NCBI GenBank assembly: GCA_016795365.1
Contig: JAEUHN010000046.1
Location: 1-64,000 of the forward strand
DNA from: Verrucomicrobiaceae bacterium
GTDB taxonomy: Bacteria > Verrucomicrobiota > Verrucomicrobiia > Verrucomicrobiales > Verrucomicrobiaceae
Direction: 5' to 3'
Length of the DNA: 64,000 bases
The notes beneath the pieces were generated by a model, which was not told where the DNA came from, made no database searches, and worked only from the letters and a program-made list of their open reading frames with translations. Below, piece after piece: positions 25,101 to 64,000 of the stretch. Every line of letters starts with the position of its first letter. Position 1 is the stretch's first letter. Made by a program: the position numbers and the translations under genes.

Positions 25101-25480
25101 CCAGCAAACGGTCGCTCCAGCGGATCGCGCGTGCCTTTGCCCTCGACGGCGACGGTGAACTTCTTTGCCTCGGTGGTGAAGCGTCCGAGCGCGGCATCGG
25201 CGAACTGGCCGTCCACCTCGACATGCGTCTCCCGCAGCAAGGTGAAGCAGTCGCCCGCACCGGCTGGGCCCGTGTAGCCGAGGAGCTGACCGAAGATGTC
25301 GGTGAGGAACTCGGGGAGCAGGGCGGTCTCTTTGAAGGTGTCTGCCTTGCCCGAAGCGATGAGGTCGGCCCAGTGCTGGAGGCGCGGACGGGCGGCGGCA
25401 ACGGTATCGGGCAGCGCAAAGGTGTGGACTTGCTGGCGGACGAGTTCGGGATTGAAGAGGGGCTTGGTTTCAACAGCCAT
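22124..25480 (-). CDS. Type IIG-like restriction endonuclease-methyltransferase (Eco57I family)
   Basis: 1118 residues in one chain. The N-terminal nuclease domain shows D95 and E113-x-K115 (VAVEGKGT), a PD-(D/E)xK arrangement. The central N6-adenine methyltransferase has motif I DPACGSGAFL (491-500) and NPPY (612-615). GAFYTPAFITRYVVEQTL before motif I is the motif X region. The C-terminal third (QYGIKTGFNDAFLID, YLRGSDLDRW, then HFGNNKTFFL) is a TaqI-like target-recognition region. It would methylate and cut its own target; defence against foreign DNA is the usual role. It is the first gene of a minus-strand cluster and divergent from the propeller gene. A methylation-only or inactive variant cannot be excluded. 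Confidence 0.9.
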   Translation of the reverse strand: MAVETKPLFNPELVRQQVHTFALPDTVAAARPRLQHWADLIASGKADTFKETALLPEFLTDIFGQLLGYTGPAGAGDCFTLLRETHVEVDGQFADAALGRFTTEAKKFTVAVEGKGTRDPLERPFAGRRMSAVDQAYRYAINLPCDWIIVTSMRETRLYHKGSNQQTYERFETTRLAVDESLLKRFVFLLGAERVVPASGPCHLDTLLRSSENAGRELTNQFYALYAQIREQVFLQLRLSNAAVPPEEILRCTQKLLDRILFCSFCEDRGLLPPNTVRGAFEHNDPYNPRPIWDNFRGLFRSVDVGNATLRIPAYNGGLFAHDAGLDTLAVPDPVCALFRDLAEYDYRPAREAEDADDSVEIRPVIDVDILGHIFEQSITDLERLRQDLDAADSAAPDEKQAKSRRKKEGAFYTPAFITRYVVEQTLGSVLREKFETLRTTEEAAATGTAKKALADPSAYDLAALNEPQRKALIRFWEQWQEVLKTLRILDPACGSGAFLIESFDQLHAHYEVSNARLEELRGHRSLFDLDRQILQHNLYGVDLNAEAIQICQLSLWIKTAAHGKQLTSLDHSIREGNSVVSDPTVHPKAFDWHTAFPEVFAQGGFDVVVGNPPYVRQELLTPFKPWLEQHYASYHGMADLYVYFYELGHRLLKPGGLLSYIVTNKWMKAGYGEPLRRFFRDQAWVRSVVDFGHAKQIFEEADVFPCIIVAEKPTSEDKPKTARLCTIPREQLRIDDLSVQIEKEGAAMDVEQLKSEAWQLEPAEVSALLNKLRHTGKTLKQTVGAAPQYGIKTGFNDAFLIDDATKRQLIKDHEGCREVIKPYLRGSDLDRWHSNWDQLWMIVLPSSNDHAWPWADLKGEAAEDKFRELYPSLHAQMKPHEEALRKRQDKGRHWWELRSCAYWDAFEKPKIFYQEIQFHPSYSLDGAGHFGNNKTFFLSTDDLFLLAVLNSPLMWWHNWRYLPHMKDEALSPVAFKMAELPIAEPTAAIRTATETAVRRLIDITASQQQTQRTVLDWLRVEYAIEKPSQKLAALTDLDSDAFIAEVKKLRGKKQPLTAASLAALREEYTRSIEPARALAAEALQLERTLSDLINQAYGLTPAEVQLMWATAPPRMPF

Positions 25481-38335: not shown

Positions 38336-41300
38336 ATGAATCTAACCAGTTCCTCCACCTCTCACCAGCGCAAGCAAAGTCCTGCTTTGGCCTGGATGCG
38401 TCGTTATCTTCGAGTGCCAGTCACCGGCCTCCTGCTAGCAAGCTTCAGTCTTTGGAGCACACAGCTCAAGGGGGCGACATATTACTGGGATGCTGACGGA
38501 GTTACGGTTAATAATGTGCTGACCGGGGCTGGCCTCGGTGGAGCGACGGCTAATGGTATTCCTACCTGGAGCACAACCGGCTCGAACTGGTGGAATGGCA
38601 ACAACTTGGCTCCGGCGAGTCTTTCTGCATGGAATAATGCAGGTAACGACATCGCAGTTTTCACGGGCACGGCGGGCGCGATTACCCTGGGGACGGGTGT
38701 CACGGTTGGTGGGCTTCAGTTCAACACGACGGGTTACACGCTTGGGGCGGCGACTAACACGAATGCGATCACGTTTGGCGGGACTACAAACAATATCGTG
38801 CTCAACAATATCGCGGCAGCAGCGATCAACGGGCCGTTGGCAGGTGGAGCCGGAAACGCTGTTGTGCTGACGGGCGGTGCTTTTGGCGGGGCCACTGCGG
38901 GCGTCCTTACGCTGTCTGGAACGGCCGCAGGTTTGACCGGCTACAGTGGTAGCACGACGATTAACAACGGCATGACCATGTCGTTGACTCAAAATAATCA
39001 GGCCCTTTCGAATACGTCGGGAATCACCCTGAATGGCGGATCTATCTCGTTGACGAACACCACCGCTGCTGAAGCGGCGCTGAATCGCATCAACAACTCA
39101 GCGGCAATCACTTCGAATGGTGGCGTCATCAACGTCACGAACACCGTTGCAGCCGCCACCCCTTACTCAGAGACCATCGGTGCTGTGACTCTCGGCTCTG
39201 GGCGTTTCAATATCAATCAGGCCAATGCTAACACAGGTGGCACTCAGGTGCTCATTCTGACCAGTCTTACCCAGACCGGAACAGCTTCTGCCGCAGTCTT
39301 CGGTGGTGGTGGCTTGAATACTTCAACGAACCGGGTGAACAATGCGGGCTTTGGTGCCGCAACGCCTGCAAATCAAATTGTCGGTCCCTGGCTTATCACG
39401 GGGGCAGGTAACACAACTCTCACTGATTATGTGGTGTATGACGCTTCAGGCAACCTCCTTCCCGCGAATATCGCAGCCAGTGCAGAAACGACGTGGACCA
39501 CGGCAGCAAATAGCTACGTGCTGGGTGCTGCCACGACGCTTACCGGAACCCGCAACATGGTTAGTTTGCGATACACCGGCGCGGCAGCAAGTCTGGCTCT
39601 GGGAACCTTCAATCTGGGAACGACGGGTATTTTGAATGGCGGCAGCGGTTTGCTGACGATCAGTGGGGGTGGTGCAGTGACTTTGCCATCCGCGACGAGT
39701 GCGAATCTTTACCTCTCGCCGAGCAACGGTCAGGGTATCACCATCAGTTCGCCGATCAACGACAACGGTGCTGGCGTTCTGACCTTGGTTAATATTGGCA
39801 CGAATACGACGACATTGAGTTCCACGGCCAGCACATACAGCGGTGGGACTGTGATCAATGCGGGAACCATTAGCATTGGAGCCAATACGAATCTGGGTGC
39901 GGCGGCTGGTGGTCTGACTTTTAACAACGCAGGCAACACGGCTGGCGGTCTGACACTGACAGCTGGCACGACGCTTGGCACTGTGGGGACACCCGTCAAC
40001 CGTGCGATCACCTTGAACAATGGATCCCTTGCCACCATCACGACAGGTGCATTCAATCACTCCTTTATCGGCAACATCAGTGGCACCGGGGGATTCATCA
40101 TCGCGGGAAATAGTGGAAATACCTTGACCTTTGGTCAGAGTGGCTCAACCAGCACCTATACAGGCCCCACGATCGTTAATGCCGGGACTCTCAAGGCTGG
40201 TATCGTCAACGCTTTCGGCAATGGATCGGCAGTTACGTTGAGCAACACCGCAGGGGTGGTTCTTGACATCACTGGCTTCAATGTCGCCATCGGGTCACTT
40301 TCAGGCGGTGGCACGACGGGAGGTAACGTCACTCTCGGTGCAGCCACCCTTTCGATCGGCGGCAACAATGAAAACACGACCTTTGGTGGGGTGATCTCCG
40401 GAACAGGAACGATCGCGAAAACCGGGAGCGGGGTATTGACTCTCACTGGCTCTAATACCTTCACGGGAACCCCGTCGATTACTGGCGGGATGGTCAACAT
40501 CATCCACAATCAGAACCTTGGGAATGGCACGGCGATTAGCATTGATGGTGGTGGTATTCAGTTCGCACCTGTCAATTCATCAGTTACCAACGACATCTCT
40601 GCCCGCACGGTTACGATCGGCGTTGGTGGTGCTACGTTCGATACCAATAACTATCAGGTCGTTTTCGCCAATCCGATCGGAAACGCTGGCACTGGCAGCC
40701 TGACCAAGGCGGGCAACGGAACGCTTGTGTTGCGCGGGGCAAATACCTTCACGGGTGCTACCAACGTTCGAAATGGCGTTCTTCGTCTAGAGAACGCCCA
40801 AGCCCTGGGAACAGGCTCATCCGGCGTAGCTGTCCAAACGGGTGCGGCACTTACATTGGCGGGCGGTATTACGACGGGAGGGGCTGGCTTGGGTGGATCT
40901 TTGACGTTGAACGGCAATGGATCACTGGCTGGACAGACGGGCGCTTTGGTCAATGCAGCCGGAACCAATACTTTCGCAGGTGCGATCATCCTCGGTTCAT
41001 CTTCCTCCATTGCTGTTGACGTCGGTTCACTCACTCTTTCCAACGCGACTGCGACTTCGGGTTCTGGTGATCTAACGCTCACAGGCTCCGGCACCGGCAC
41101 TTTGGCTGGTGCCTTGGGGCATTCAGGTGGCTTGAATAAAACTGGGACTGGTGCTTGGACCCTCTCGGGGACAGGCGGCACATTCACTGGTGCTCTGGCA
41201 GTGACCAATGGCACTCTGAATTTCGCGGCGGGCTCGTTGGGGACGCCGAGTGCCACGACACTTGGTTCAGCCACTCTCAATCTGACTAGTGGTAGTCAGT

Positions 41301-44300
41301 CGATCGGAGACCTCACCCTTACAGCTGGCTCGAATAGCAATATCATCGCAGCAGCATCGGCAGCACTTACGACGGGTGCCATTACCCGCAATGCCGGGGC
41401 CGTCGCAAATTTCAATATTTCAGCCTCAGGCAGCAGCTTGCCTACTTCGGCCACGGGATCCGGGGCCAACAGCCTTCTCGGATATGCTCGCGTTACGGAT
41501 GGAACTGGAACTGGAATCGGCTATGTGAGTGGAGGGAACATCCTTCGGTTCAATGCCACGACGACGGGAACACTTCTGACGGATAGCTCCAATTTCGCCA
41601 CCACCGATTATCACACGAACGGCATCACCAGTCCGCTTGCTTGGGACAATGGAATTACGACGCGTGCGGTGAACTCGCTGACGTTTGATACATCCGGCGG
41701 AGCGCAGGTCGTTCATATGGGCGCGGTAGGCAACGTTCTCTCCATCTCCAGCGGAGCACTGGGTTTCACTGGGGCTTCAGATGGCACCCTGCTGGGTGGT
41801 CAGGTTGGTGCTTCCAATTCCGAGGTCATCGTGCATCAGGATGGTGCTGGAGTTTTTGCAATCAACAGCCCGATCACCAGTGGGACAGGTAGCTTGATCA
41901 AGTTCGGCACAGGCACCTTGCAGCTGTCGGGCGGAACTTCCGTGGCTAGCGCTACGCTGAATGGCACCACGTCTGTGACAGTTGCCAGCAATGCCGCATT
42001 GGCTGTGGGCCAAGCTGTATCAGGTGGTGGTATCGCTCCGGGCACGACCATTGCGGGCCTAACTGGTGCCACAACGGTTATTCTGTCTGCACCGGCAACT
42101 ACGTCGATGACTTCAAGCCTGACATTTGGTTCTGGAAGCAGCTACACTGGATCGACGCAAATCCTTGGGGGCACCTTGCAGGCCACATCTTCAAGTATTC
42201 TCTCCCCTGGAGCAATTCTCAACAACGTCGCGGGCTACCAGACTTACTCTGGAGGACCTGTGGGTCCTACCAGCGCAGTGACCTTGGCCAACGTTGCGGG
42301 CACCAGCCTTGACGTCAATGGCAATACGGTTGTCATCGGCTCACTTGCAGGCGGAGGTTCGACGGGAGGGAATGTGAATCTCAGTGGTGGCGGCACCTTG
42401 GTTATTGGCGGTGGCAATCTGATTCAAAACCTCAGCAATGTAGCCGCCCGCACCACTTTCGATGGCCAGATCACAGGCAACGGCAATCTCGTTGTGACCG
42501 GAGGTGGGACCACCGTCCTCACCAACAGCTCTAACAACTTCACCGGCCAGATCAATTTGAACTCGGGCACCTTGGCGGTGACCAATCCCTCCGCCTTGGG
42601 TTCCGGCACGTCTCCGATCTTTGTCAATGGTATTGCCAGCGGCGCGCTCAATGGCACCGCACTACCTGCCGGGATGCTGGTCATCGACGGCGGCACCTCG
42701 GGCTCCACCATTACGCGAGACATCGTCCTTGCGGGCCGAGGCAACAACACTGTAGGCGCAAACTTTGTGAACATTGGTAACAACACTTACTCCGGCAACA
42801 TTTCGGCCAACTCGAACACGGAAGGTCGTCTCGGCAATGCGGCTGGCACGATGACCATTACAGGCACACTCACGGCTTCCAATGACCAGCGCTTTTATTT
42901 CCTCGGTGGCCCCGGTAACCTTGTCGTCTCCGGACTGGTCAGTGGTGGCGTGGCCGGCACCAGCGGCATCAACAAGTCGAGCCGTGGTGGCTTGAACAAC
43001 GTGTTGGTGATTACTAACAACGCGAATGACTACATTGGGGACTGGCGCACGGATTCTGGAAACACCCTCGTTTCAAATGGTGCTCAGCTCGGTCTTAATA
43101 CGGCCTCCAATACCAAGATTCGCGGCTCTGGGGGAACATGGGAGTTCCGCACTGACAGTGTTGCTAGCTTTGCTCCTTACCGAATTAGCCAAGCTGACGG
43201 CAGCCAGACGATCTTTGTTGATCGAGGCATTGGCACTCTGGGAAGCGGTGGCATCAACCAAACGGTGTCCTTCGCGAACTTCGCGCAGACGAATAATCGA
43301 ACGACGACTTTTGCGGGACGCAATGGATACAATATCACGCTGGCAGCGGTCAGTGGCTCGGGTAGTGGTGCCAACGACGATGGCATCACTGTGACCACGA
43401 ATGGCACAACCACCATTACCGGAAATGTGTGGGGAGAAGCGGACACTACCGCAAGGCAGTATGTCGTGAGCGCTGTGGGCGAGACGCTGATCAATGGCAA
43501 TGTCCTTGCTACAGGGGCTACTCACCACTTGGTCAAGCGCAGTGCAGGGGTTCTGACCGTGGGAGGAAACGTGAGCACGTTCACTGGCGAGACTCGAATT
43601 CAGCAGGGAACTCTTTCGGTCAGTTCATTTGGTGGTTTGAATGCCAATACTGCCGTCATTAGCATCGGTGGTATCGGGGGAACCAATCTCCCTGCCGAGA
43701 CCCTGACCGGCACTTTACTTTACACCGGCGCGGGTGAAACCACAGGCAAGGTCGTTAATCTTCGAGGAACAACTGGTGGTGCCATTCTTCTGTCGAGCGG
43801 TTCGGGTCCCCTCGTGTTTAGCAGCGCTTTCACCGCTACTGGTCAGTCCGCTGCGGGCAGTAAGACGCTTACTCTCGGGGGCACGAATGCCGGTGCTAAC
43901 ACCATCCAGGGGGCGATTGTGGACAACTCGGGCACCAATATCACGTCGGTGGCGAAGATTGGCACAGGCACGTGGGTCCTCTCTGGGGCAAATACCTTCA
44001 CTGGCTCCACCACCATCTCGGGGGGCACGCTGGCAGTGCAGGACACTTTCTCAGGTTCGTCGAGAAATGTTCTTCCAAATGCGGGCGCTGTTATCTTCGC
44101 TGCCGAAACCTTTACCCAATCAGCGGGTGGCACCTTCTCTTACTTGGGTGCCGCTGGTTCAGCCAGCACCGAGGCCGTGGGTGCGCTCACTCCGTCGGCC
44201 GGTGCCGGAACCATCATCCTCACTCCTGGGGCAGGTGGTAGCACAGCACTGACGTTTGCTTCACTGGGCACTGTAACCAATGGTTCGGGTATCAATATCT

Positions 44301-53300: not shown

Positions 53301-56300
53301 CCAGTTCCATCGTGAATGCTGGCTCCGCCGCAGGTGCTGGTCTGACCAAGTCGGGTGCGGGCTCTCTGGACCTGACATCTGCCAACAACACCGTTACTGG
53401 CGCGCTGACGGTCAATAACGGCACCCTGAAGCTTAACAGCACCAACTTCTCCTACTTCCCCAATCAGACGCTTCAGTTGCTTGGTGGCAGCCTGGATTTG
53501 AACGGAAGCGTGCAGAACTTCAACAACCTTCAGGCAGCGACGGGAACGCTTGCCGTCAACGATTTGTATGTGGCTAACTCGGGCGGCAACGTGATCAATA
53601 CCTCGGCAACGGAGGCCACCCTGGCCTTGACCACCGCGAATGTCAGCTTCTTCGGACGTATCGGAAATGACACACCCTCAGAGAGCGATATTGCATTGGT
53701 TCGCTCCACTGCTGCTGGTGCTACAGTGGATTGGAATCTCTACGGCAACAATACCTACACAGGCGCAACGCTCCTAAATGGTGGTCGTGTCCAGTTGCTC
53801 GACCAGGGACGTATCAGCGGCACCTCGTCGATCGAACTTTCCAATGCTACCCTGTTGCTGGCTGGCACCAATACCTCATACGAGTTTGCTGATTCCAATC
53901 TGGATCGCATTAACAACTCGGCTGCTATCATTCTGCGTGGAGCTATGTTCCAAGGCCGCGCAGTCCCTGCCACCACGGTTGCTGAAACCCTTGGCGCACT
54001 CACTATTGGTGCAGGCACGAGCATCCTTGATGTGGCCGAGCCCGGCACAGCGTTGAATCAGATCGATTACACTTTCGCGAGCCTTGCGCAGACCAACAAG
54101 GGGACGCTGCGCGTTTTGAACGTGGATGCCAACGTGGGATCATCTGCCGGCGGTCTTGCGCGGACATTCTTCTCGGCTGCTCCAACGCTGACCAACAACA
54201 TCATCGGCGGTTGGGCGCTGTCTGAGCGTGACTTCGCTAGCTACAACAGCCAGGGCATCGGTGGTCTGGGTGCCACTGGATTTGCTGGATACTCTCCGCT
54301 GACTGATATCAATGCTGCCGCTAGCACCGACAATATCCGTCTGTGGGCTGGCACACCTCTGACGCCGGGCACCGTCACCCTCACAGGTGATCGCACAGTT
54401 CATACTCTCTCCTTCTTGTCCGGTCAGCATTTAACGGGACAGAGCATTGGTGTGACCGCTTCGACTTTGACTCTGTCAACGGTGTTAGGACTTGCGGTCG
54501 GACAGTCGGTCAATGGAAATGGGAACATTCAGGCTGGGACTACTATTACGGCAATCAATGGCACCACCATCTCTCTTTCTTTGCCAACCACGAACGGCAC
54601 AGCAGGCACGAACAATCAGGCCTTCAGTTTTGGAGGAAATACCACGCTCGATCTCGGTGGCTTCACCCTCACACTTGGATCGGGTGGCTTGATGGTTTCG
54701 CCAGCAGGGGAAGGAACCACTTCAACGATCCAGAATGGTAGCTTAACGGCTGGAACACCTGGTGTCGGTGGAGACCTCTACCTCCACGGGGTGACTTGGT
54801 TCAACGGTCAGAATGACAATACCGGTAATCGCGACATCACCGTCAGTGCCAATATCGTGAATAACGGCGCTGGTCCGGTAAGCCTCATTGTGGCAGCCAA
54901 CAATGGCCGTGGCACCTCTTCCAACCTCAATGACCTGCGTCTCTCGGGAACCAATACCTACACTGGTGGCACTTGGGTCAACTCGGGTCGTCTGGTGCTG
55001 TCCAATCCGTCAGCCAACGGAACGACGGTCACCGCCACGGGTAGTGGCGATATGACCATCGCAGGTGGTTATTCTGGTAACGCCGCTGTTTTTGTTGACC
55101 GCAACACGCGTGTGGTGCTGGAAGGCAACAGCCAGATTGCCAACAGCGCATCCGTGACAGTGATGGGTGGTGGCACGCTCGATCTCAATGGCTTCAATCA
55201 GACCCTTGGTGGTCTGGTATTCGATAATCATGGTGGTGACTCCCCGACCGTTACGACGGGAACAGGCATCCTGACCCTCAATGGCAACGTCACCGCCAGT
55301 GGCCAGAATTTGGGCTCGGTCTCGACGATTTCTACTACAGGCGTTGGCCAGGTCAGTCTGGGCGGCAGCACGCGGACGATCACGGTGAATCCTGTGACGT
55401 GGAACAGCGACATCCTCAGCCCTTACCAGCCTAATCTCAATATCTCGGGAACAGTGACTGGCACCGGTAGCGAAGGTCTGATCAAAGCAGGCAACGGCAT
55501 CCTCCAGTTGAGCGGCCAAAGCACTTTCACAGGTGGCGTTGATGTTCAGGCGGGTGGCCTCTTGATTGGTGCAAGCAGCACGCCGTCTGCCTATGGCTCG
55601 GTGCTCACCTCCGGTCCGTTGGGAACAGGTAGCTTTAACATTGGTGCTAATACCTTCTTGTTGTCGTCAGCTGCGGCGAACACCGTTGCCAACCCCTACA
55701 CCATTGGCGGCAATTTCTCTTTCCGCGGAACCACGGCACTCACTCTCAATGGTGACACCACTCTGCCATCAGGAGCAACGACGATCACGGTTGATTCACC
55801 CATCACCACTTACAATGCAAGTTCTGGCGCACTGATCCTGGGTGGTGTGCTCAGTGGCACCGATGGCACCTCTGCCCTGATCAAAAATGGACTAGGCACC
55901 CTGGTTCTCAATAACAACAACACCTTTGCCGGTGGTGTCATCCTCAACGCAGGTAACCTCGTTCTTGGGGGGCTGCCTGCCACCAACACGGTGTCACCGC
56001 TGCCCTCAGGCAGCTCGGTGCTGATCAATTCCGATCAAGCTCTGCTGAGCTTCATGAACAACGGTGGTGGTTCGGGTGGTGTGATCACTTACGCCAACGA
56101 TGTGAATATTCTCAACACCCTGACACAGGCAAATCTTCATGGTGGGAACTTCACTGCCAACACCGGCAACGTGATTGAGGTGCAGAACCTGAATGTTACG
56201 AGTGGCCAGACGATCAACATCTCAAGCTCGAACGCTTACAACCTGCGCCTTCTCAACTTGAATACCTCGGGTGCGACGCCCGTGAATATCAATGTCGCGG

Positions 56301-59300
56301 GCGGAACGACGGTTCTAGTGTTTAATTACGGCACGTTGCAGCCGGTCAATACTGGCAAGGGAACACTGCTCTTCCCTGACCAGCCGCTGATCAATCAGAC
56401 CAACACTCTCAATGGTGGGGCTGCGATCGCCCTCAGTGGAACCTACCCCTTGGTCCCAACGTTCCAGGCTTTGGGGACATCGGCTCCTTCTGGGTTCACA
56501 TCGGGTGGCTTGTCCACTACCTATTATTCAACCAATCCAGTCGTGGCAGGGAATCAGAACATTATCTCGGTGGGCTCCTCCGGCATCGCACCATCGGGCA
56601 CATTTGCTTCCGTGTCCGTCTTGGGTGACACCGCCTTTTCAAATCGTCCGCTGGGTGTGACTAATGCATCTGGGCCTGCTGCTAATACCATGGCGGTCAT
56701 GACTGGCCTCATCGAGATCACTACTGGCGGCACTTATTCGTTCACTACGGCTGTAGATGACCAGTCACTCTTGATCATTGATGGTCAGACCGTGGTCGGC
56801 AAAAACGCCGCTGGTGGTGGCACTGGCATTGGTGACTTCACAGCGACAAGCACGGGCACGGGCACGATCACGCTTTCGGCAGGGTTCCATACCATCACCT
56901 ACAAGAACAACAACTCGGGTAGTGGTGGCGGTTACCATCTTCTTTACTCGGGGCCGGATACCAATGGCAACAATCTGGTTCCCAATACCGGTGTTGGCAC
57001 AGGTGGATTCCAGGCTGTCCCGGCTAACAAGCTCTATTTCAACAACAGCGCAGCTACCGTTGGAAACAACTATCTCCTCGCTGCTCAGATTACCAATAGT
57101 GCTAGCGTAGCAGCGGCAACGACTGCCACGATTGATACCTTCGGAACGCAATTCAATACGACTTTCGCTGACCTGACTTTGAATGCAGGTTCACGTCTGA
57201 ATGTTGTCAACGGCTCGGGCAATATCGGAGTTAACTGGCTCGGTGTGGCTGGTGCGACGACCATCTCCGGTGCAGGCGCGATTGTGAATCCAGGTAGCAC
57301 CGCAACTTCCGGTGCAGGAATGCTGAACCTGATTGGGGGAGTCACTGACTCCGGCAACGGCCTGACCAAGTATGGATCTGGCACACTCATCATGGGCGAC
57401 AACGCAAGTAACTTCACAGGGGCTTTCGATGTTCGCGCTGGCACTGTGATGCTCACCCATGCAGGTGGCCTCTCGACTGGCACCAATACCATCGGAAGTG
57501 CCACCACGGTTCTCGCCAGCTCAACCACCACCATCAACAATGCAACGGTGGGTGTCTCAAGCACGGCTGGCTTGGTCGTGGGCCAGATCGTCAATGGCAC
57601 CAATATCCCTGCGGGTGCATTCATCGAAAGCATTGGTCCGGGCAATCAGATTGTTCTGTCGGCCGCTGCGACAGGAACCGGTTCGGTGACGCTTAATATC
57701 GGTGGTGCTAGCTTGGATCTCAACGGTGTAACAGGCGTCACAGGCAATGTGACTGTTAGTGGCCTTGGTCAGAACGCCATGATCGCAAACTCGGCAACGC
57801 CTGTAGCGAGCGGGTTTACCGGAGCTTTGTGGAACAGCAGTTTCAACGCAGCAAGTATGACAGGCTCCGTCACTATCGGTGCGCCTGGAACCGTCATCGG
57901 CGGCTACGGAGACATTACTCTCAATGGAGCTGTGAATTCAATTTCTGCCAATGGGTTGGTGGTTTCCGGCATTGGCACGCTCAATCTTAACAACGATAAC
58001 ATCGCCACCTTGCTTGGTGGAGTGACGGTTAACTCGGGTGCTGTCGTCAAGCTTGGTAATGCCAACGGACTTGGTGCTACGGCGACGGCCGCTGTCTTTA
58101 ACGGTGGCTCTATCTTGGACCTTAATGGCCAAACGACAGCTAAGACTCTGACCATCAACGGCGCGGGTCGGACAAACTTCGGAACGGGTGTGAATTCCCT
58201 TGGTTCAGTGATCAATAGCTCGTCAACGACGGCCGTAATGAATGGCACGTTGACGCTAGGTGCTGCTTCAAGCATTGGCTCCAATCGGGTCAATGCAACC
58301 TCCGGTGTTGCCAATGCAGGGGACATCACAGTCAATGGCATCATCAGCGGGGCATTCCTCCTGAGCAAGGTGGGTGACAATACGCTGACGCTAACCAACG
58401 CCAACACACAGAACGGAGTCACGATCACCAGAGGCACTGTTGTTGTCAGCGGTGCATCTGGCGCGGCCGGAAGCGGGGGTAACCTAACTGTCGGCCCTGG
58501 CACCTACTCTGGTCTTACCGCAGGTAATGTGCTCACCTTCAATAACACCTCTGCGGCGTTTAACGGCCGCGCAGGTGGTGCAGCTGCAAATCGTTCGATC
58601 ATCCTGAACGGTGGTGCATTTAACCTCATCGGCAACGCTTCCACAGCCGTTAATGAGGCCATCGGCACTGGTAATCTCCAGATCAACAATGCTAGCAATG
58701 TTGTCACGCTCTCCAACGCGGGTGCCGATGTGCAGTTGACTGCGGCTTCGATTACTCGTGCCAACCAGGGCACCGGGCTCATTCGCGGCGTGACCTCCAA
58801 TGCCGCCTCGGGCCTTACCTTGACGACTGCTGTAACCACTGTTGGTCAGGCAGGTGCGAACGGTGCCAAGAACAGGGCAATCGTTCCTTGGTTGCTGGTG
58901 GACACTAGTGTGACCGGTGTGGGTGCCAGCTTTGCAGTTTCGGAAACCGGAACTGGTCTTGGTGTCCGTCCGCTCAACGTGACCACTGAAATGGACACAA
59001 CATTCACCGCGAACAACAACATTCGCATGAACAGCGCACTGTCAGCTGGTGCCGCTGCTGCGAACTATACCTCGACCACGATTAACTCGCTGACCGTCGA
59101 GGCAACGGGCGCTCTCACTATCAGTACGAATCGCAATGTGGCTCTTGATAGCGGCGGTATCCTTGCGCTTGCCGATGGCTCCATCAGCGGTGCGGGTTGG
59201 CTGAACACAACCAGCAATCGCGAGTTCATCATTCACACAGCCGGATCGACTACCGACTTCAGCATTGATTCAGCGGTCGGTGGCGCAGTTGCCCCTAGCA

Positions 59301-62300
59301 CTGGCGGTCTTACCAAAGCGGGCGAAGGTAATCTCGTTCTGGGTTCGACCAGCGGGAACTTCTACACGGGTGCTACTCGCATCAATGGCGGTAAGATTCA
59401 GCTTGCCTCAGGTGCTCCGAACAACGCTCTGTTCTATGGTTTCTCTGTCCCACCAGCTATTACAGCGACGGGAACAGGTGCTCCTGGCCAAAACATCATT
59501 GTCAATGCGGGGGGGACATTTGACATCAACGGAAACAACCAGCTTATTGCAGGATTGAACCTCAATACTCTGGGCGTCGGTTCACTGCCTGGTTCGGCGG
59601 GAATCGTAACGAACAGCGATTTAACTAACGCTGCCATCCTTACCATCGTTGGAAACACCAACACGTCGGACTTTGCAGGCTCGATCAACGGAAACCTTAG
59701 CCTGGTAAAGTCAGGCGCAGTGAATCTTGTTCTTCGTGATGACAATGCCTACACAGGCTCCACTCTGTTCCTCAGCGAACTCAATCAATTGATCGATCAG
59801 GGCCGTCTCTCGGGAACGAGTTCCATCACTCTGAATCGTGCGGTTCTTGATTGGAACGATACAGGTATTCAAGCGATGAATAATCGTATTGGCTCCTCCA
59901 CTCCGATCACCATGAATGGCGGTGCTTTCCTTTACACCAGCCGCAGCGGCACGGATGGCAGCATTTCGCTCGGTGGTGTTACCGCCAACTCCGGCACGAA
60001 CATCCTTCGTATCAATGTTGGCAGCAGTGGTGCCGGCACGGCCAGTATGACGATCGCAAGTCTCAGCCGGACGGCAAACTCTGGAGCCGTTATGGTCTTC
60101 TCGGGCGCAACGGGAGCCATCGGAGACAACCCCTTTATCAAGATCACATCCGCTCCGACGCTAACCAATGGAATGATTGGCGCGTGGGCCGTGACCATGA
60201 ATTCTGCCTCGCCGGAAGTCGGACCGTCCTTTGCTACCTATGATCCGGTGGCCGGCGTGCGGCCGTTGAGCGCCTATTATATGACGCAGACGTTCCTAAC
60301 GTCTTCGAGCACAAGTAATCTCCGTCTGGGTGATGCCGCTCAGACAGTGCCAACCGGTGGTTACCAGGTGAATTCTTTGGCTTGGAATGGATTCTCGGCA
60401 GCTCGTGCTTTGAGCTTTGTCAATGCCTCTGACACACTGACGCTGACCAGCGGGGGCGCTATCTTCGGTATCGAGAACTTCACTCGCACGATTGGCTCCA
60501 CCGCAATTCGTGGAAAGCTTACATCTGCTGGTTCGGAACTGTTCCTGCACAATCCTGAGAGCACGCTGATCGTGAACTCTGATATTACAGGCACTCTTGA
60601 TTTGGTGATGTCTGGTCTTGGTCGTGCTGACCTCGCGCCCGAAATCACCCTCACCAACGCCAACACATACGTCGGCAAGGCTTACGCCAATGGTGTTATC
60701 GTCAACTTGGCAAATGACACAGGCAGCGGCAATGCGGTGACTGGTGATTTGATAATCACAGGTGGGACGAACCTGACGACAGGCAGCGCGGCGAGCACGG
60801 CTTCTCTTGTTCGCGTGGCTACAACTCTGAATCCCGCGACACAGAGCAATCTTCAGATTGCCGATACATCCACCGTCACGGTTCGTGGTGGTGCGCAGCT
60901 TGACCTTCAGGGTATCAATGAAACGTTCGCAGCCTTGGTGTTCAACAACGAGGGCGGTGGAACCAACAACCCGGTTGTCCAAACGGGAGCAGGTGTTCTT
61001 ACTCTGACTGGGGCGATCCCGATCAGCGCTACCAACCTTCTCGATCCACGTGCTATCGCCGTTGTTTCGGGCAATGTTAGCCTCCCCGCGACTTCGACCA
61101 TCGCCGTTGATCCGGTGGCGAATAGTGAAGTGGTTCGCAACGGAACCAACGGTCTCATCGGCCTCCAGATCAATGCGAACATATCTGGCGCAACAACCGT
61201 GAACAAGACTGGCAATGGCGTGCTGGGTCTGGGTGGCGTGAGTAACAGCATCACGACCGTCAATCTCGATGGCGGCGCGATTGTGTTGGGTGCGAACGCT
61301 AACTTCAAGAATGCGAAGTTCGACCTCGATTCGGGCACCATCCTTGACATGCGCGGTAACACCAATCTGATGGCGGGCACAATCGTTGGAGCTGGCACGA
61401 TCAAGAACTTCGCCATTGGCACGGCTGGAACTCTCGTGATGGGAGGTGACAACCTGGATGGCACATTCAGCGGGCTGATGACTGGTGAGTTCTCCAATGC
61501 TCTTCTCAATGTGATCAAGACCGGAACCGGCAACTGGAACCTGAGCGGTGACAATTCATTGAGCCTCCTGGGCAACCTTCAGATCAACGGTGGAACAGTG
61601 ACCCTTGATGGTGCTTCGGCGAAGACTGGCTTCATCACGACCATTCTTGGCGAAGGTGGCACCCTCACCTTGGATAACAGCACCAACGTTTTGAACAATC
61701 GTCTCGGAGGCACTACCAGCATTTCGTCAGCCACGGCGGATCGAGTGTTCTCCAATCGCGGCGGCGTGTTCAACTACATTGGCGGCGCTAGCGCGGTCTC
61801 GGAAGCTCTCAGCACAGTCACCAATCTGGAAGGAACCACCACATGGAATCTGACGGCCAGCGGGACCAGCTCCACTTCTATCAATATCGGCACGGTGAGT
61901 GCATCAAGCACAACAAATAGAGGATCTCTGTATTTGAATGCTGGAACCGCTACGCTTGGCGGAGGAGCAGCAGGAGCCAATCGAGTGACCGTATTCTCAA
62001 CAACGCCAACTTTGGTTGGTGGTGGTGGTGGTGCAGGAACAAAGACGATGAGCATCCGACCTGACATGATCGGCATCGACAGCACGGGATCAGGACTGGT
62101 GACTCATGACGCGAACGGATTCCGACTTCTCACCGCTTCTGAGTATCAAGCCCTGCCTGACGCGGCCAGCGGTCTTGGTGCAGTCATTGCCGGGTTCACC
62201 ACGAACGGATCGGGTATTGTAACGTTGCCATCCGTTGCCGGGCTTGTTGCCGGTCAGAGCTTGGCAACTGCGGTTAATGGTATTGCGACAACAGCGACTA

Positions 62301-64000
62301 TCAGTTCCGTGAACAGCTCTCTGGGTCAGGTGACATTCAGTGCGAATGCGACCTCAGGTGCAGTCGGACGATTCAACCTGATCGTTCCTGCTACTGCCAA
62401 TGTTCGCACGGCTACAGCCTCGCAGCTCTATCAGGCGGCTACGGTCAACAGCATCACCTTGGACAGTGGTGGTGGTCTTACAGCCAATGGCAACCTAATG
62501 ACCTCGGCAAACTGCCCAACAGGCCTCAATTTTGGCATCAATGGTGCGCTTAATACCTTGACTGTGACGACCGGAGCGGTGGTGGCAAATACCGGCAACA
62601 CTGGATTCAATCAGGGAGCAATCACCGCTGGAGGTGCCTTGCTCCAGTTCCATACACTGGGCAATCTCACGGCCAACAACTACATCCTTGGCAGTGGTGG
62701 CATCGTCAAAGATGGTTCAGGAACCCTCACCCTTGGAAAGCGCAGCTACAATACAGCCCAGCTGTTCGTGAACGAGGGGACTGTGGTCCTGAATGGCGGA
62801 GCCAACACGCTGCTCGTGGTTCCGACTGGAACGACTGCCACAGTGGCGGATTTGGTGGTCAATGCGGGCACTCTTGACCTAAATGGCAACAGTCAGGCAG
62901 TCGCTCGTGTGACCAATACGACCACGACCCTCTACCCGAACGGAGCTGGCACTATCACCAATACCAGCGGAACCGCAGCTACTTTGACGGTTAACAATCC
63001 TGCGACGACTTTCGCAGGGGTCTTGGCTGGCAACTTGGCTTTGGACAAGGCTGGAGCCAATGCATTGACTCTTCTGAGTGCCAACTCTTACACCGGAGCG
63101 ACTAACGTCCGTGGCGGAACGCTCGAACTCAAGGACAGCGCAACCACGGGTGCGGGTGCAGTGAATCTGCTTTATGGCACCTTGCTTCTGAACAACAGCG
63201 GTTTGTCCCACGTCGCCGCACGCACGGGAACGAGCGCAGTCAATATGAGCGGATCAACGCTCTCGCTTACTCCTCGTCTCGAGGGCGACACGACCGCTAC
63301 CACGGGCAATCTCAACCTCACGGCAGGATTCAATGTTGTTGCCTTCCAGGCTCAAACGGGCATCGGTGGCAGCCTGAATTTGGTGACGCCGAACATCATC
63401 ACCAATCGAGTTGCTAATTCGGGTGCCACATTGAATGTCACCGCAGGCACCGGTCAGATCGGCCGTGGTGTCTCTGGCGGCGCTGGTCAGAACCCAATCT
63501 GGACGTTCACCACTAACCCTACACTCGACGATGGTATCATCGGTGGCTGGGCTGTGGGAAGCGGCACTGACTTCCTCACCTACCAGAACACCGCCCATTC
63601 AACGGGTGCGATTGGTGTCGGATTGATGGGTGACACAGGTGCGGGATTCACGGCTTACAACACCACCATCACGGCGGCTGGAGACTTCCCAGCAAGTGCT
63701 GCGAATAACAACATCAAGGTAAATGGAAACTTCAACGTCAACGTTCCTGGTGCTCGCAGCTTCAATGCCATCTCATGGGCGGCGGGTGCGGCTGGTAACA
63801 CGATGACCTGGACCAACCAGACGGATGCATTGACGATCCCATCAGGAGGTCTGATCCGCAGTGGTAACTTCACGGGCTCGATTGGTCAGAGCGTTGACTG
63901 GGGCCGTCTCACGCAGGGTTCTGCGGAATTGTTCATCTACAACAACCAGAGTAATCTGACGATCAATTCTCGTATCACTGGGACCAACAAGGTGGTTCTA
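38336..64000 (+). CDS. Giant autotransporter-associated beta-strand-repeat protein (3' end outside window)
   Basis: The frame is open from the ATG at 38336 to the last base of the window: 25,665 bp, 8,555 codons, no stop seen. I checked the frame at many points (for example 45002, 50402, 55802, 60602 and 63962) and it always reads repeat-like protein. The N-terminus has a long basic n-region and an export signal (RVPVTGLLLASFSLW), with the mature part beginning near ATYYWDADG. The body consists of G/N/T/S-rich beta-helix repeats of the PF12951 type: LNKAGTGTLSLTGLNTFTG, LTKSGGGVLYLTGNNTYTG, LTKAGNGTLVLRGANTFTG and many more. Cysteine is very rare. It is expected to be secreted or surface-bound as a very long fibre or adhesin. 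Whether a C-terminal beta-barrel or sorting signal exists cannot be seen. Confidence 0.95.
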   Translation, partial: MNLTSSSTSHQRKQSPALAWMRRYLRVPVTGLLLASFSLWSTQLKGATYYWDADGVTVNNVLTGAGLGGATANGIPTWSTTGSNWWNGNNLAPASLSAWNNAGNDIAVFTGTAGAITLGTGVTVGGLQFNTTGYTLGAATNTNAITFGGTTNNIVLNNIAAAAINGPLAGGAGNAVVLTGGAFGGATAGVLTLSGTAAGLTGYSGSTTINNGMTMSLTQNNQALSNTSGITLNGGSISLTNTTAAEAALNRINNSAAITSNGGVINVTNTVAAATPYSETIGAVTLGSGRFNINQANANTGGTQVLILTSLTQTGTASAAVFGGGGLNTSTNRVNNAGFGAATPANQIVGPWLITGAGNTTLTDYVVYDASGNLLPANIAASAETTWTTAANSYVLGAATTLTGTRNMVSLRYTGAAASLALGTFNLGTTGILNGGSGLLTISGGGAVTLPSATSANLYLSPSNGQGITISSPINDNGAGVLTLVNIGTNTTTLSSTASTYSGGTVINAGTISIGANTNLGAAAGGLTFNNAGNTAGGLTLTAGTTLGTVGTPVNRAITLNNGSLATITTGAFNHSFIGNISGTGGFIIAGNSGNTLTFGQSGSTSTYTGPTIVNAGTLKAGIVNAFGNGSAVTLSNTAGVVLDITGFNVAIGSLSGGGTTGGNVTLGAATLSIGGNNENTTFGGVISGTGTIAKTGSGVLTLTGSNTFTGTPSITGGMVNIIHNQNLGNGTAISIDGGGIQFAPVNSSVTNDISARTVTIGVGGATFDTNNYQVVFANPIGNAGTGSLTKAGNGTLVLRGANTFTGATNVRNGVLRLENAQALGTGSSGVAVQTGAALTLAGGITTGGAGLGGSLTLNGNGSLAGQTGALVNAAGTNTFAGAIILGSSSSIAVDVGSLTLSNATATSGSGDLTLTGSGTGTLAGALGHSGGLNKTGTGAWTLSGTGGTFTGALAVTNGTLNFAAGSLGTPSATTLGSATLNLTSGSQSIGDLTLTAGSNSNIIAAASAALTTGAITRNAGAVANFNISASGSSLPTSATGSGANSLLGYARVTDGTGTGIGYVSGGNILRFNATTTGTLLTDSSNFATTDYHTNGITSPLAWDNGITTRAVNSLTFDTSGGAQVVHMGAVGNVLSISSGALGFTGASDGTLLGGQVGASNSEVIVHQDGAGVFAINSPITSGTGSLIKFGTGTLQLSGGTSVASATLNGTTSVTVASNAALAVGQAVSGGGIAPGTTIAGLTGATTVILSAPATTSMTSSLTFGSGSSYTGSTQILGGTLQATSSSILSPGAILNNVAGYQTYSGGPVGPTSAVTLANVAGTSLDVNGNTVVIGSLAGGGSTGGNVNLSGGGTLVIGGGNLIQNLSNVAARTTFDGQITGNGNLVVTGGGTTVLTNSSNNFTGQINLNSGTLAVTNPSALGSGTSPIFVNGIASGALNGTALPAGMLVIDGGTSGSTITRDIVLAGRGNNTVGANFVNIGNNTYSGNISANSNTEGRLGNAAGTMTITGTLTASNDQRFYFLGGPGNLVVSGLVSGGVAGTSGINKSSRGGLNNVLVITNNANDYIGDWRTDSGNTLVSNGAQLGLNTASNTKIRGSGGTWEFRTDSVASFAPYRISQADGSQTIFVDRGIGTLGSGGINQTVSFANFAQTNNRTTTFAGRNGYNITLAAVSGSGSGANDDGITVTTNGTTTITGNVWGEADTTARQYVVSAVGETLINGNVLATGATHHLVKRSAGVLTVGGNVSTFTGETRIQQGTLSVSSFGGLNANTAVISIGGIGGTNLPAETLTGTLLYTGAGETTGKVVNLRGTTGGAILLSSGSGPLVFSSAFTATGQSAAGSKTLTLGGTNAGANTIQGAIVDNSGTNITSVAKIGTGTWVLSGANTFTGSTTISGGTLAVQDTFSGSSRNVLPNAGAVIFAAETFTQSAGGTFSYLGAAGSASTEAVGALTPSAGAGTIILTPGAGGSTALTFASLGTVTNGSGINISAASGTVTITGVATSTATTLPGAGHIYINGADFARSNGGAMVTPVYGTDAGFVNAGAALTAASHNRVAANTSTGALTVSSLKIDGAQTVTQTGLLTVNVGANTSGGILQTGGSGTITGTGITSAGTGELVFRVNGSGDQLTLSAPITATTTGGWTKNGAGLLVLNAVNAQTTAGAININEGTVRLQGATTTMGATNFNLNLRQGAILELNGVNVNASTASMNSLNGAGTIRNGAAANVVLNVGNNSGSGYFTGLIENGTGGGTLSLNKAGTGTLSLTGLNTFTGPLTFTGGVIAVTSLANIGQPSGLGAGVATSTATNQASIVFASGTTGTIQYTGSSATIFQATQTPSVSIDRLFTITGGATGTIDSSGTYGNNVVGSGGANNAALIFNNTNPIAYTGTGTATLGLAGTSTGDNEFRPQLDNANFAITKSGGSLWILNPSSANTYAGPTTITGGALRAVDGVGLSSGSALRLAGGVLETSGTFTRSIGTAVGQVAWTDAAGTAVNQAGGFAASTAPLTVNLGGSGAQVSWGTGGIGNGTGTLILSSASALSDVTFLNPINLNGGSRTIQVDDNTSSFLDYATVSGVISGTGALTKSGGGVLYLTGNNTYTGNTTLSLGGVVVRSIGGGSTASSAFGDGTGILGLNGAHLQYVGVGETVNRQINLTASSTIENSGTGPLVINNFVNASAGAKTLTLFGFNTDTNIINSNLVDNGGALSVTKGDGGTWILAGNNSYTGTTRITSGFLGLGGTTMGGAGTPTGTISVSNAGLFATNPAGLVISNPMSIDANTSVTFTGTNSITYNGLISGATSNAWQIANTISGGTLTINGNVNSNETSSGRTFVFQGTGNTVFNGNMTSSGAAVGLGVNTSGTFTIGGAVAAGALHTSSTITQGRIIVNKAGSLNPFGSNSVIDMGGGSIESNFALTGADGLTNALRLSNIYGVFSGTNSIEFKGNATFGSFENSAGDRRVTNNLTGPASLTFSTNTFDLSNDNTARTATLQGSGIYNISAQITNGGTGLSALTYSGNGTLNLTGNSPGGATATTWGGAMTLNGGTTNISGAGTVGSTGVLTVSNGALLNLDNAGTNTANRLGARAVTLNGAGLTLVGNAGATTSETAGNLTIGGGQSTITLTNNGQNLALGFGTLAINTGGYLNFASNAALGTAANAITFSTAPTLAPATVGILNRATVNGTEFATYNTNGLTANTGGIQAFAAYNVPTLSTTTNSTTTVTVPSTAGLTAGMAVFGPGIPVGATIASITNGTSYVLSAAATTTGTSTLTYGTAGYTDINSALIPASTDTIKIGTSFITTDDLNANRSFNAMNIAGNGLNVSAAKNALLTLSGGGLIVSGGSNTLSVPRIALGAEGAFHINSGSTLILDGAIVSGGAGLNINLGGALTVNTKQFYSGQTTVNNGTLKLASGVTNTLFPNQTMQLNSGATLDLNGTTQHVGSFLSSNQTIPGLGGTVVNTAGTTANLVVNGSNGAFVGSINGNISFSRLGANNLTLESASSYTGVTNILGGGIVLRDNATLLNTSAININYGSLFFRNTDNLSIDNTNRVNDAAGITMRGGTIDYASRANSNSFEQLGAITILEGGNTITNSINTLGAYQTSDLRIASLTRTGVGSTVNFTTGAGTLGAEGSNPRILFDTALANNSSNIIGSWAIANSTDYAAYNVAQGVGAVGTAGYVGYDTGFASGNLTNIIRTADTVTTLPGNTTTGVLRLAGSVINSIAFTGGSDVLNLEHGGLLRSNNANFTSIGNSTLRGILTAGGTEASGTRELVVYNNAAGTANFTGGTTTVGTSTISMTSTAGLQPGMTVTNANLPVGTYIVSVDSSTQVTVSQNATASAGTQTFVAGSGNMVINSVIADNGSGNSVRLVKSGAGVLNLSASNTYTGGTVFNQGTVNLIGSGTTVPAGGVTLNGATLVVNTAANQIATTNNVTLNDSSALTFNTGLGLGVTNTLASVTFNNSGGSGTPAITSLAGNVLSLTGSAPITVTTNNAATIPAINGGTLSLSNGTNTLNIGAIVLPGTSTVYNDITTSLNITSPVIGAGSGTAITKTGNGLLQLSPSSSFGNGSTTVGSTTLTLPSTAGLSVGQAVSGTGIASGAYITAIVNGTTAVMSQSAVSTQTSTAVTVSGSSFAGGVNVNAGGLVLGGSSVVTTLSTLGGTVAGPIGTGTLAMASGTRLLVDNASRTLHNNVTFAGNPIFDSTGLTGATLTLNGAITTPNALVVNVNNPALTVAMNGLFTNAGSITSITKNGLGNFTMNFTDVGSTVPVTLNNGGNLGLLHDGDGTGGFETITMGTITMDAALPNITIGRAGTETYFTTAINKTISPTLVACLENGLTLTNNNGYGLLLNNNIALNATLGTAGAIYSVSGASGSLQVDGLTLSGVISGGASGANNVVLTKAGGGTLVLSNAANTFGGAAGGIIDITGGYLSVAADAALGDSDNLVRINTNSATQGFRATDTFSTNRTFVLNGAANNGFEVSKGEIFTINSSFSIPTLTTGIAKNDLGTLELAAANSTWTGVLTINQGAVRISDSNALGTTAGGVVLAGVLNSAIELSGGVTVSDPLAINMGNNNTNRGIDGQGAVRSVSGINTYAGAITLAVSTANGQNRSATVTADSLATLNITGGVVAGVGGTTGESRHSGIGFGGAGTINLTTTGMTINAGAVGGIFQATKFGTGTLNVQVANAHAGRDLIVKQGTVSINGAGTLGTLGTAQGATRNTHIAEQGILELNNISTNVNNRLSTSTLTLNGGTLNVLGNSTATTTETTGTITINAGDSVITLDADAAQQLNVTTGTGARGAAGTLLLRGDGLGSAAGVGVATFVGTNTPFIGQLGGTGSKFKGILPWAIGDTSITGTGLGFLTADSAASGANTGANRWRLLDASEQVTAIQAPTVAGTFENVALSAAYTYLSNDCLANSFIVNSLNLQSGGGLTVGGMRYLGIESGGLIAQTGNAGILNGNSLLLAGQITNAIAAPVVANRELIITNPGNLTIASSIVNAGSAAGAGLTKSGAGSLDLTSANNTVTGALTVNNGTLKLNSTNFSYFPNQTLQLLGGSLDLNGSVQNFNNLQAATGTLAVNDLYVANSGGNVINTSATEATLALTTANVSFFGRIGNDTPSESDIALVRSTAAGATVDWNLYGNNTYTGATLLNGGRVQLLDQGRISGTSSIELSNATLLLAGTNTSYEFADSNLDRINNSAAIILRGAMFQGRAVPATTVAETLGALTIGAGTSILDVAEPGTALNQIDYTFASLAQTNKGTLRVLNVDANVGSSAGGLARTFFSAAPTLTNNIIGGWALSERDFASYNSQGIGGLGATGFAGYSPLTDINAAASTDNIRLWAGTPLTPGTVTLTGDRTVHTLSFLSGQHLTGQSIGVTASTLTLSTVLGLAVGQSVNGNGNIQAGTTITAINGTTISLSLPTTNGTAGTNNQAFSFGGNTTLDLGGFTLTLGSGGLMVSPAGEGTTSTIQNGSLTAGTPGVGGDLYLHGVTWFNGQNDNTGNRDITVSANIVNNGAGPVSLIVAANNGRGTSSNLNDLRLSGTNTYTGGTWVNSGRLVLSNPSANGTTVTATGSGDMTIAGGYSGNAAVFVDRNTRVVLEGNSQIANSASVTVMGGGTLDLNGFNQTLGGLVFDNHGGDSPTVTTGTGILTLNGNVTASGQNLGSVSTISTTGVGQVSLGGSTRTITVNPVTWNSDILSPYQPNLNISGTVTGTGSEGLIKAGNGILQLSGQSTFTGGVDVQAGGLLIGASSTPSAYGSVLTSGPLGTGSFNIGANTFLLSSAAANTVANPYTIGGNFSFRGTTALTLNGDTTLPSGATTITVDSPITTYNASSGALILGGVLSGTDGTSALIKNGLGTLVLNNNNTFAGGVILNAGNLVLGGLPATNTVSPLPSGSSVLINSDQALLSFMNNGGGSGGVITYANDVNILNTLTQANLHGGNFTANTGNVIEVQNLNVTSGQTINISSSNAYNLRLLNLNTSGATPVNINVAGGTTVLVFNYGTLQPVNTGKGTLLFPDQPLINQTNTLNGGAAIALSGTYPLVPTFQALGTSAPSGFTSGGLSTTYYSTNPVVAGNQNIISVGSSGIAPSGTFASVSVLGDTAFSNRPLGVTNASGPAANTMAVMTGLIEITTGGTYSFTTAVDDQSLLIIDGQTVVGKNAAGGGTGIGDFTATSTGTGTITLSAGFHTITYKNNNSGSGGGYHLLYSGPDTNGNNLVPNTGVGTGGFQAVPANKLYFNNSAATVGNNYLLAAQITNSASVAAATTATIDTFGTQFNTTFADLTLNAGSRLNVVNGSGNIGVNWLGVAGATTISGAGAIVNPGSTATSGAGMLNLIGGVTDSGNGLTKYGSGTLIMGDNASNFTGAFDVRAGTVMLTHAGGLSTGTNTIGSATTVLASSTTTINNATVGVSSTAGLVVGQIVNGTNIPAGAFIESIGPGNQIVLSAAATGTGSVTLNIGGASLDLNGVTGVTGNVTVSGLGQNAMIANSATPVASGFTGALWNSSFNAASMTGSVTIGAPGTVIGGYGDITLNGAVNSISANGLVVSGIGTLNLNNDNIATLLGGVTVNSGAVVKLGNANGLGATATAAVFNGGSILDLNGQTTAKTLTINGAGRTNFGTGVNSLGSVINSSSTTAVMNGTLTLGAASSIGSNRVNATSGVANAGDITVNGIISGAFLLSKVGDNTLTLTNANTQNGVTITRGTVVVSGASGAAGSGGNLTVGPGTYSGLTAGNVLTFNNTSAAFNGRAGGAAANRSIILNGGAFNLIGNASTAVNEAIGTGNLQINNASNVVTLSNAGADVQLTAASITRANQGTGLIRGVTSNAASGLTLTTAVTTVGQAGANGAKNRAIVPWLLVDTSVTGVGASFAVSETGTGLGVRPLNVTTEMDTTFTANNNIRMNSALSAGAAAANYTSTTINSLTVEATGALTISTNRNVALDSGGILALADGSISGAGWLNTTSNREFIIHTAGSTTDFSIDSAVGGAVAPSTGGLTKAGEGNLVLGSTSGNFYTGATRINGGKIQLASGAPNNALFYGFSVPPAITATGTGAPGQNIIVNAGGTFDINGNNQLIAGLNLNTLGVGSLPGSAGIVTNSDLTNAAILTIVGNTNTSDFAGSINGNLSLVKSGAVNLVLRDDNAYTGSTLFLSELNQLIDQGRLSGTSSITLNRAVLDWNDTGIQAMNNRIGSSTPITMNGGAFLYTSRSGTDGSISLGGVTANSGTNILRINVGSSGAGTASMTIASLSRTANSGAVMVFSGATGAIGDNPFIKITSAPTLTNGMIGAWAVTMNSASPEVGPSFATYDPVAGVRPLSAYYMTQTFLTSSSTSNLRLGDAAQTVPTGGYQVNSLAWNGFSAARALSFVNASDTLTLTSGGAIFGIENFTRTIGSTAIRGKLTSAGSELFLHNPESTLIVNSDITGTLDLVMSGLGRADLAPEITLTNANTYVGKAYANGVIVNLANDTGSGNAVTGDLIITGGTNLTTGSAASTASLVRVATTLNPATQSNLQIADTSTVTVRGGAQLDLQGINETFAALVFNNEGGGTNNPVVQTGAGVLTLTGAIPISATNLLDPRAIAVVSGNVSLPATSTIAVDPVANSEVVRNGTNGLIGLQINANISGATTVNKTGNGVLGLGGVSNSITTVNLDGGAIVLGANANFKNAKFDLDSGTILDMRGNTNLMAGTIVGAGTIKNFAIGTAGTLVMGGDNLDGTFSGLMTGEFSNALLNVIKTGTGNWNLSGDNSLSLLGNLQINGGTVTLDGASAKTGFITTILGEGGTLTLDNSTNVLNNRLGGTTSISSATADRVFSNRGGVFNYIGGASAVSEALSTVTNLEGTTTWNLTASGTSSTSINIGTVSASSTTNRGSLYLNAGTATLGGGAAGANRVTVFSTTPTLVGGGGGAGTKTMSIRPDMIGIDSTGSGLVTHDANGFRLLTASEYQALPDAASGLGAVIAGFTTNGSGIVTLPSVAGLVAGQSLATAVNGIATTATISSVNSSLGQVTFSANATSGAVGRFNLIVPATANVRTATASQLYQAATVNSITLDSGGGLTANGNLMTSANCPTGLNFGINGALNTLTVTTGAVVANTGNTGFNQGAITAGGALLQFHTLGNLTANNYILGSGGIVKDGSGTLTLGKRSYNTAQLFVNEGTVVLNGGANTLLVVPTGTTATVADLVVNAGTLDLNGNSQAVARVTNTTTTLYPNGAGTITNTSGTAATLTVNNPATTFAGVLAGNLALDKAGANALTLLSANSYTGATNVRGGTLELKDSATTGAGAVNLLYGTLLLNNSGLSHVAARTGTSAVNMSGSTLSLTPRLEGDTTATTGNLNLTAGFNVVAFQAQTGIGGSLNLVTPNIITNRVANSGATLNVTAGTGQIGRGVSGGAGQNPIWTFTTNPTLDDGIIGGWAVGSGTDFLTYQNTAHSTGAIGVGLMGDTGAGFTAYNTTITAAGDFPASAANNNIKVNGNFNVNVPGARSFNAISWAAGAAGNTMTWTNQTDALTIPSGGLIRSGNFTGSIGQSVDWGRLTQGSAELFIYNNQSNLTINSRITGTNKVVL
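41942..62400 (+). repeat. Seven ~60-residue GQxVxGxxIxxG modules within the giant protein
   Basis: A distinct module recurs among the ordinary repeats. Pattern: hydrophobic strand, AGLxxGQxVxGxxIPxGTxIxxI, then V-x-LSxxAT and a T/S-rich end. DNA positions (approximate starts): 41970 (ALAVGQAVSGGGIAPGTTIA), 47975 (GLTAGMAVFGPGIPVGATIA), 49690 (GLQPGMTVTNANLPVGTYIV), 50530 (GLSVGQAVSGTGIASGAYIT), 54445 (GLAVGQSVNGNGNIQAGTTI), 57525 (GLVVGQIVNGTNIPAGAFIE) and 62200 (GLVAGQSLATAV, divergent). Sequence between copies is unrelated. The module may be a small beta-domain decorating the fibre. Confidence 0.8.
49262..64000 (+). repeat. Four IIGxWA modules within the giant protein
   Basis: Starts: 49262 (SNIIGSWAIANSTDYAAYN), 54191 (TNNIIGGWALSERDFASYN), 60170 (TNGMIGAWAVTMN, then SFATYDPVAGVRPLSAYY) and 63530 (DDGIIGGWAVGSGTDFLTYQ). 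Each is followed by ~150 residues with a similar order: a Y-rich segment, an N-I-(R/K) step, a strand ending GGLLRS or similar, an IG...LRG/LTQG turn, then ELVVYNN, ELFLHN or ELFIYNN. They are spaced 3.4-6 kb apart and mark long super-units. Confidence 0.7.
56516..57000 (+). other. PA14-like domain embedded in the giant protein
   Basis: About residues 6061-6222 of the giant protein. STTYYSTNPVVAG opens the domain; GTYSFTTAVDDQSLLIIDGQ, ITLSAGFHTITYKNNN and YHLLYSGPD are the standard PA14 landmarks (D-D pair, idG, aGxHxi, Y-GPD). PA14 domains bind glycans in adhesins and glycosidases, so this may be a ligand-binding unit within the fibre. Confidence 0.8.

Follow-up and report, generated by a model that had tools for sequence, protein, structure and literature searches.

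Proteins with PATR, or autotransporter-associated beta-strand, repeats (PF12951, TIGR02601) share with the giant protein described here repeats above the curated cut-off (20 in the giant by Pfam/NCBIfam) and beta-helix-like models, but the giant is far longer, carries no C-terminal barrel, and has a PEP-CTERM end. Sorting by PEP-CTERM tags and exosortases (EpsH; TIGR02595) was first noticed in Verrucomicrobium spinosum (PMC1569441). With such proteins the giant has in common the PEP motif, hydrophobic helix and terminal poly-Arg, and its genome encodes exosortases, one of them in a polysaccharide-type locus; it differs in size, in its body of PATR repeats and larger modules, and in a tag variant, VPEPxR...RRRR. 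The 'huge' or giant proteins of the PVC superphylum (PMC11573180, PMC12057145) likewise exceed 5,000 aa, are of an extracellular type and come from the same superphylum, whereas in our giant no degradative domains were found and a specific layout of three or four modules is conserved. The surface proteins Giant1-5 of Apilactobacillus kunkeei (PMC12863079) resemble the giant, by description, in that one genome encodes several of very large size, although in another phylum and a Gram-positive envelope.

The stretch of DNA analysed (the window) is 64,000 nucleotides long and forms the initial 64 kb of a 171,167-bp contig (G000:C25) in a 55-contig, 6.74-Mb draft assembly. A sequence-only reading had reported one frame that runs for 8,555 codons or more without closing inside the window and encodes an exported beta-helix-repeat protein above 800 kDa. 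Its coordinates are exact, and on the contig the same frame terminates at a TAA at 67418-67420. The full product, probably exported, has 9,694 aa, ~948 kDa and a pI of 5.1, with abundant Gly, Thr, Ala and Asn, and the frame is intact and contains no N. A strong hairpin resembling an intrinsic terminator, GGGAGACC...GGTCTCCC-TTTTT, lies ~35-65 nt beyond the TAA. Features referred to below are the following.

38336..64000, + strand, giant ORF, residues 1-8555 of 9,694, extending past the window to 67418-67420
38336..38473, + strand, N-terminal leader MNLTSSSTSHQRKQSPALAWMRRYLRVPVTGLLLASFSLWSTQLKGA minus its last residue, delimited by eye (boundary uncertain)
40700..40789, + strand, PATR (PF12951), among the stronger repeats
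43955-44038, 49925-50014, 55877-55966 and 63041-63130, further PATR repeats in the window
41936..42139, + strand, ~65-aa insert (GxGIPxGTxI type), copy 1
47945..48148, + strand, ~65-aa insert, copy 2
48443..49432, + strand, module A (~330 aa), residue 3370
49670..49864, + strand, ~65-aa insert, copy 3
50513..50710, + strand, ~65-aa insert, copy 4
53330..54352, + strand, module B (~330 aa), residue 4999
54452..54622, + strand, ~65-aa insert, copy 5
56516..57025, + strand, intermodule stretch B-C with PA14 (Pfam match 56660-56884)
57512..57709, + strand, ~65-aa insert, copy 6
59300..60331, + strand, module C (~330 aa), residue 6989
62183..62365, + strand, ~65-aa insert, copy 7 (two more, copies 8 and 9, fall past the window)
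62684..63694, + strand, module D (~330 aa), residue 8117
L050:7965-9758 and L051:8768-10482, exosortase genes, one fused to DUF3485/EpsI and one with a separate DUF3485 neighbour

Both other forward frames of the region contain stops throughout, GC3 is uniform along the giant frame (0.57-0.67), and a 9,694-codon open frame would arise by chance with a probability of ~10^-158 at the observed base composition; the frame is therefore a gene and not an accident. Tandem Repeats Finder detected no tandem repeats at the DNA level within the window's share of the frame, which makes collapse or misjoining at repeats improbable. Frames of the same kind are also complete in single- or few-contig genomes of relatives. 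The giant ORF is a real, complete gene rather than an assembly artefact. It is flanked mostly by housekeeping genes (PGI, DUF1501, a transglutaminase-like protein, FecR-like, CvfB-like and pyruvate carboxylase), and no dedicated transporter or obvious secretion partner was found among the adjoining genes. The GC content of the giant (38336-64000) is 0.54-0.58, compared with 0.59-0.64 over much of the upstream region, which may simply reflect a Thr/Asn-rich composition.

Matching 200-residue tiles of the giant protein against itself gave 81 internal matches, versus 0 in a locally shuffled control; whole-protein self-BLAST was uninformative, the repeats being masked by one long self-alignment. 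The best internal matches are ~30-37% identical, and the repetition exists at the protein level only. A profile built from the four best internal repeats, a ~330-aa module in which Pfam recognizes essentially one PATR repeat alone, finds four copies in the window's giant and four in each of six giants from relatives, colinear and similarly spaced throughout. Copies at the same position in different proteins have a mean identity of 46.4%, which 0 of 20,000 label permutations reached (maximum 42.2%), and same-position copies in other species are more alike than neighbouring copies within a protein. In a tree of modules, A groups with A and D with D, B and C are split by two subtypes, and one copy is stray. 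Ten well-assembled genomes in which the module was known to occur contain 16 such giants (frames of at least 5,000 codons with a copy above 180 bits), of which nine have four modules and seven have three; four modules are also present in 12 of 14 complete giants picked from strong matches.

The PA14 domain noted in the sequence-only reading is present as a single moderate Pfam match (residues 6109-6183; 26.9 bits, cut-off 24). It sits between modules B and C, as does the PA14 of relatives belonging to the same subtype; no PA14 was found in the giants of G023, G033 and G028. The ~65-aa insert has no Pfam match in the giant protein and numbers 2 to 23 copies among related giants, some of whose frames are incomplete. 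Searches of PHROGs and of PDB sequences with the giant protein gave no match.

It is quite possible, though we would stop short of calling it probable, that these giants are one ancient family built to a fixed blueprint: three or four modules in set order and at roughly set spacing, a constant position for PA14 in one subtype, and variable length and inserts. If so, the number and order of modules would follow from a fibre of defined architecture and not from elastic padding by repeats, and bodies could be exchanged between genes while the export tail stays. The layout is orderly, conserved among giants of the family and apparently undescribed: it is neither in Pfam nor in the papers searched, and a search that left most subscription journals and preprints outside returned no description of giant PATR/PEP-CTERM proteins in Verrucomicrobia. 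The suggestion of an undescribed surface system thus holds for the architecture of three or four modules, and not for the PATR repeats or for PEP-CTERM/exosortase sorting, which are known.

Strong selection had been invoked to explain how so long a frame stays open, and orthologous giants of relatives agree with this. We calculated dN/dS in every 500-codon window, over the full length, for two syntenic pairs from the family. The G023/G033 pair (7.5k aa, 79% identity) gives 0.04-0.16, approximate figures given that dS is near saturation, and the G025/G032a pair (~8.1-8.4k aa, 71% identity) gives 0.11-0.38; these ratios indicate purifying selection from end to end. In a sister species, the syntenic gene (L084) is interrupted by a contig end and is followed by the same cvfB-like gene. 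Over the last 439 codons it is 72% identical to the window's giant, with dN/dS of ~0.13-0.27, whereas the portion before these codons is 35-49% alike. Its modules C and D (compared with window positions 59300-63694) group with the other subtype while its tail matches the window's giant, which suggests that giants have exchanged gene bodies and retained the export tail. The C-terminal tail of L084 is ~70-86% identical to that of the window's giant (contig 66.2-67.4 kb).

The C-terminus of the giant consists of PEP, a helix and RRRR, the tag of PEP-CTERM exosortase substrates, and TIGR02595 matches the last 24 residues with 21.7 bits (cut-off 16). The sequence-only reading had named this signal, a beta-barrel and a type IX sorting signal as candidates to look for at the C-terminus, and the PEP-CTERM signal is the one present. 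The autotransporter barrel PF03797 is absent from the chain and nowhere above cut-off in the genome, and NCBIfam models run over the last 2,472 aa pick up just the repeat, PEP_CTERM and, weakly, EprS, with no T9SS sorting domain. A C-terminal toxin domain of the polymorphic toxin or CDI type is also absent, this end being PEP-CTERM. All 14 complete module-family giants examined end in a PEP- tag (once PEV-), a hydrophobic stretch and poly-Arg. Two PF09721 exosortases, recovered again with NCBIfam exosortase models, are encoded in the giant's genome. One is fused to a DUF3485/EpsI-like domain, and the other adjoins a separate EpsI/DUF3485 protein, a polysaccharide flippase, a carbamoyltransferase and an AlgX/GDSL protein, a locus of predicted exopolysaccharide type. 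The tag and the exosortases, together with the lack of a barrel, point to exosortase processing of the giant. At the other end, the leader MNLTSSSTSHQRKQSPALAWMRRYLRVPVTGLLLASFSLWSTQLKGA is long, with basic and hydrophobic stretches, and by eye resembles a signal peptide; it is closely like that of a 6,796-aa paralogue on C27 and is common to the giants of relatives.

Module D, modelled by AlphaFold2 with 30 homologues, is all-beta (mean pLDDT 86), and its nearest PDB folds are autotransporter passengers, EspP first (Foldseek E 0.014, probability 1.00). The model of the C-terminal 395 aa (pLDDT 75) is beta-rich with a terminal 20-residue helix, and is nearest to a beta-helix domain from a gut metagenome (E 0.0015), followed by the autotransporter Ssp. 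Comparison with a viral structure library yielded no significant match. These models support beta-helical modules and a beta-helical C-terminal region, with Foldseek E-values (0.014 and 0.0015) that are weak.

Taken with these models, the sequence features make it probable that the giant is a Sec-exported, exosortase-processed surface fibre, a structural matrix component that probably binds polysaccharide and serves adhesion or aggregation. The hydrophobic leader would direct the chain through the inner membrane, where the PEP-helix-RRRR tag would retain it until one of the two exosortases cleaves the tag and releases the giant to the exterior. Outside, PATR repeats and the four 330-aa modules would form a chain of right-handed beta-helix segments, broken up by the ~65-aa inserts and one PA14 domain. 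Such a fibre might measure very roughly 0.2 um, if it is continuous and rises 4.8 A per 20-25-residue rung. In Aquincola, a PEP-CTERM protein promotes flocculation (PMC9850573), and in Nostoc an exosortase is required to form biofilm and to adhere to polysaccharide (PMC12188702). We favour a polysaccharide-associated surface fibre by analogy with these cases and in view of the EPS-type exosortase locus, and by the same analogy the giant may act as a structural, probably polysaccharide-binding part of the extracellular matrix. How the giant is exported and processed, its place at the surface, the shape of the fibre and its role in matrix or adhesion are all predictions.

The giant might instead be an S-layer or cell-wall scaffold, which seems unlikely but fits its repetitive, acidic (pI 5.1), Gly/Thr/Asn-rich chain and the several large paralogues per genome. 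However, length and insert number vary greatly among relatives, unlike those of a lattice subunit, and one genome has many non-equivalent paralogues. Slightly less likely again is a weapon for predation or polymer degradation, as proposed for cell-wall-degrading giants of Omnitrophota and related groups. PA14 can occur alongside glycan-active domains, which would count for such a role. Extracellular giants of PVC relatives have been interpreted in this manner (PMC12057145, citing West-Roberts et al. 2023). Nevertheless, along the whole chain Pfam (E<=0.001) detects no hydrolase, lyase, peptidase, toxin or other lytic or carbohydrate-active domain, and the chain ends in a sorting tag. A classical type V autotransporter passenger, secreted by its own beta-barrel, is very improbable: PATR repeats were defined on such passengers, the models of module D and of the C-terminus resemble their beta-helices, and an autotransporter peptidase model gives a weak match in the giant's C-terminal region, but a chain that terminates in a PEP-CTERM tag and not a barrel already contradicts it, as does the genome-wide lack of PF03797. 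An assembly artefact or a relaxed, functionless repeat expansion, as might be imagined from a 55-contig draft and a giant that is repetitive at the protein level, is hardly credible given the absence of DNA-level repeats, module copies that are merely ~30-37% identical, giants that are complete in relatives assembled into one or few contigs, and dN/dS of 0.04-0.38 over entire ortholog pairs.

Such giants are not peculiar to this genome. Named matches are in Prosthecobacter, a member of Verrucomicrobiaceae, and in unclassified Verrucomicrobiota, so that the window's genome probably belongs to that family or close to it. The ~330-aa module was detected in 46 of 68 genomes of the family. Among the matches listed, at least 31 of these 68 carry it in a frame of at least 5,000 codons (the longest has 14,657). 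Across the phylum, with the same threshold and five candidates scored per genome, the module occurs in at least 13 of 388 genomes. Proteins of this size had been thought rare; giant PATR frames are in fact routine in this bacterial family, and the window's giant is not unusual there. A frame that appears extraordinary in one window is thus the rule in its family, where much coding capacity is spent on giant putative exosortase cargo. The module plan, PEP-CTERM tag and two exosortases make the export and processing of near-megadalton chains testable in cultured relatives such as Prosthecobacter.

The same genome holds further PATR frames of 8,791, 6,796, 5,090, 4,861 and 4,236 aa. The giants of 8,791 aa (L037-L038; G000:C3:89321-115792) and 5,090 aa (L041; G000:C6:209556-224849) have no PEP-CTERM tag; their common C-terminal ending is of another type, GAGxFxLPxL...SGRVxxxP, and they are possibly a second subfamily with another fate. 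In another family of the class, a 2.3-Mb genome has a frame that extends over 17,228 codons or more, with three strong module copies (L136-L139; G183:C2). Elsewhere in the window, positions 5399-25480 include Primase/Toprim-like and AAA genes, a BsuBI/PstI-type restriction enzyme with an Eco57I-type methylase (8970-11469, - strand), an Lhr-like helicase and an MmeI-like methylase-restriction enzyme (22124-25480, - strand). This region, beside a tRNA-Val at 12641-12713, may be a mobile or defence island.
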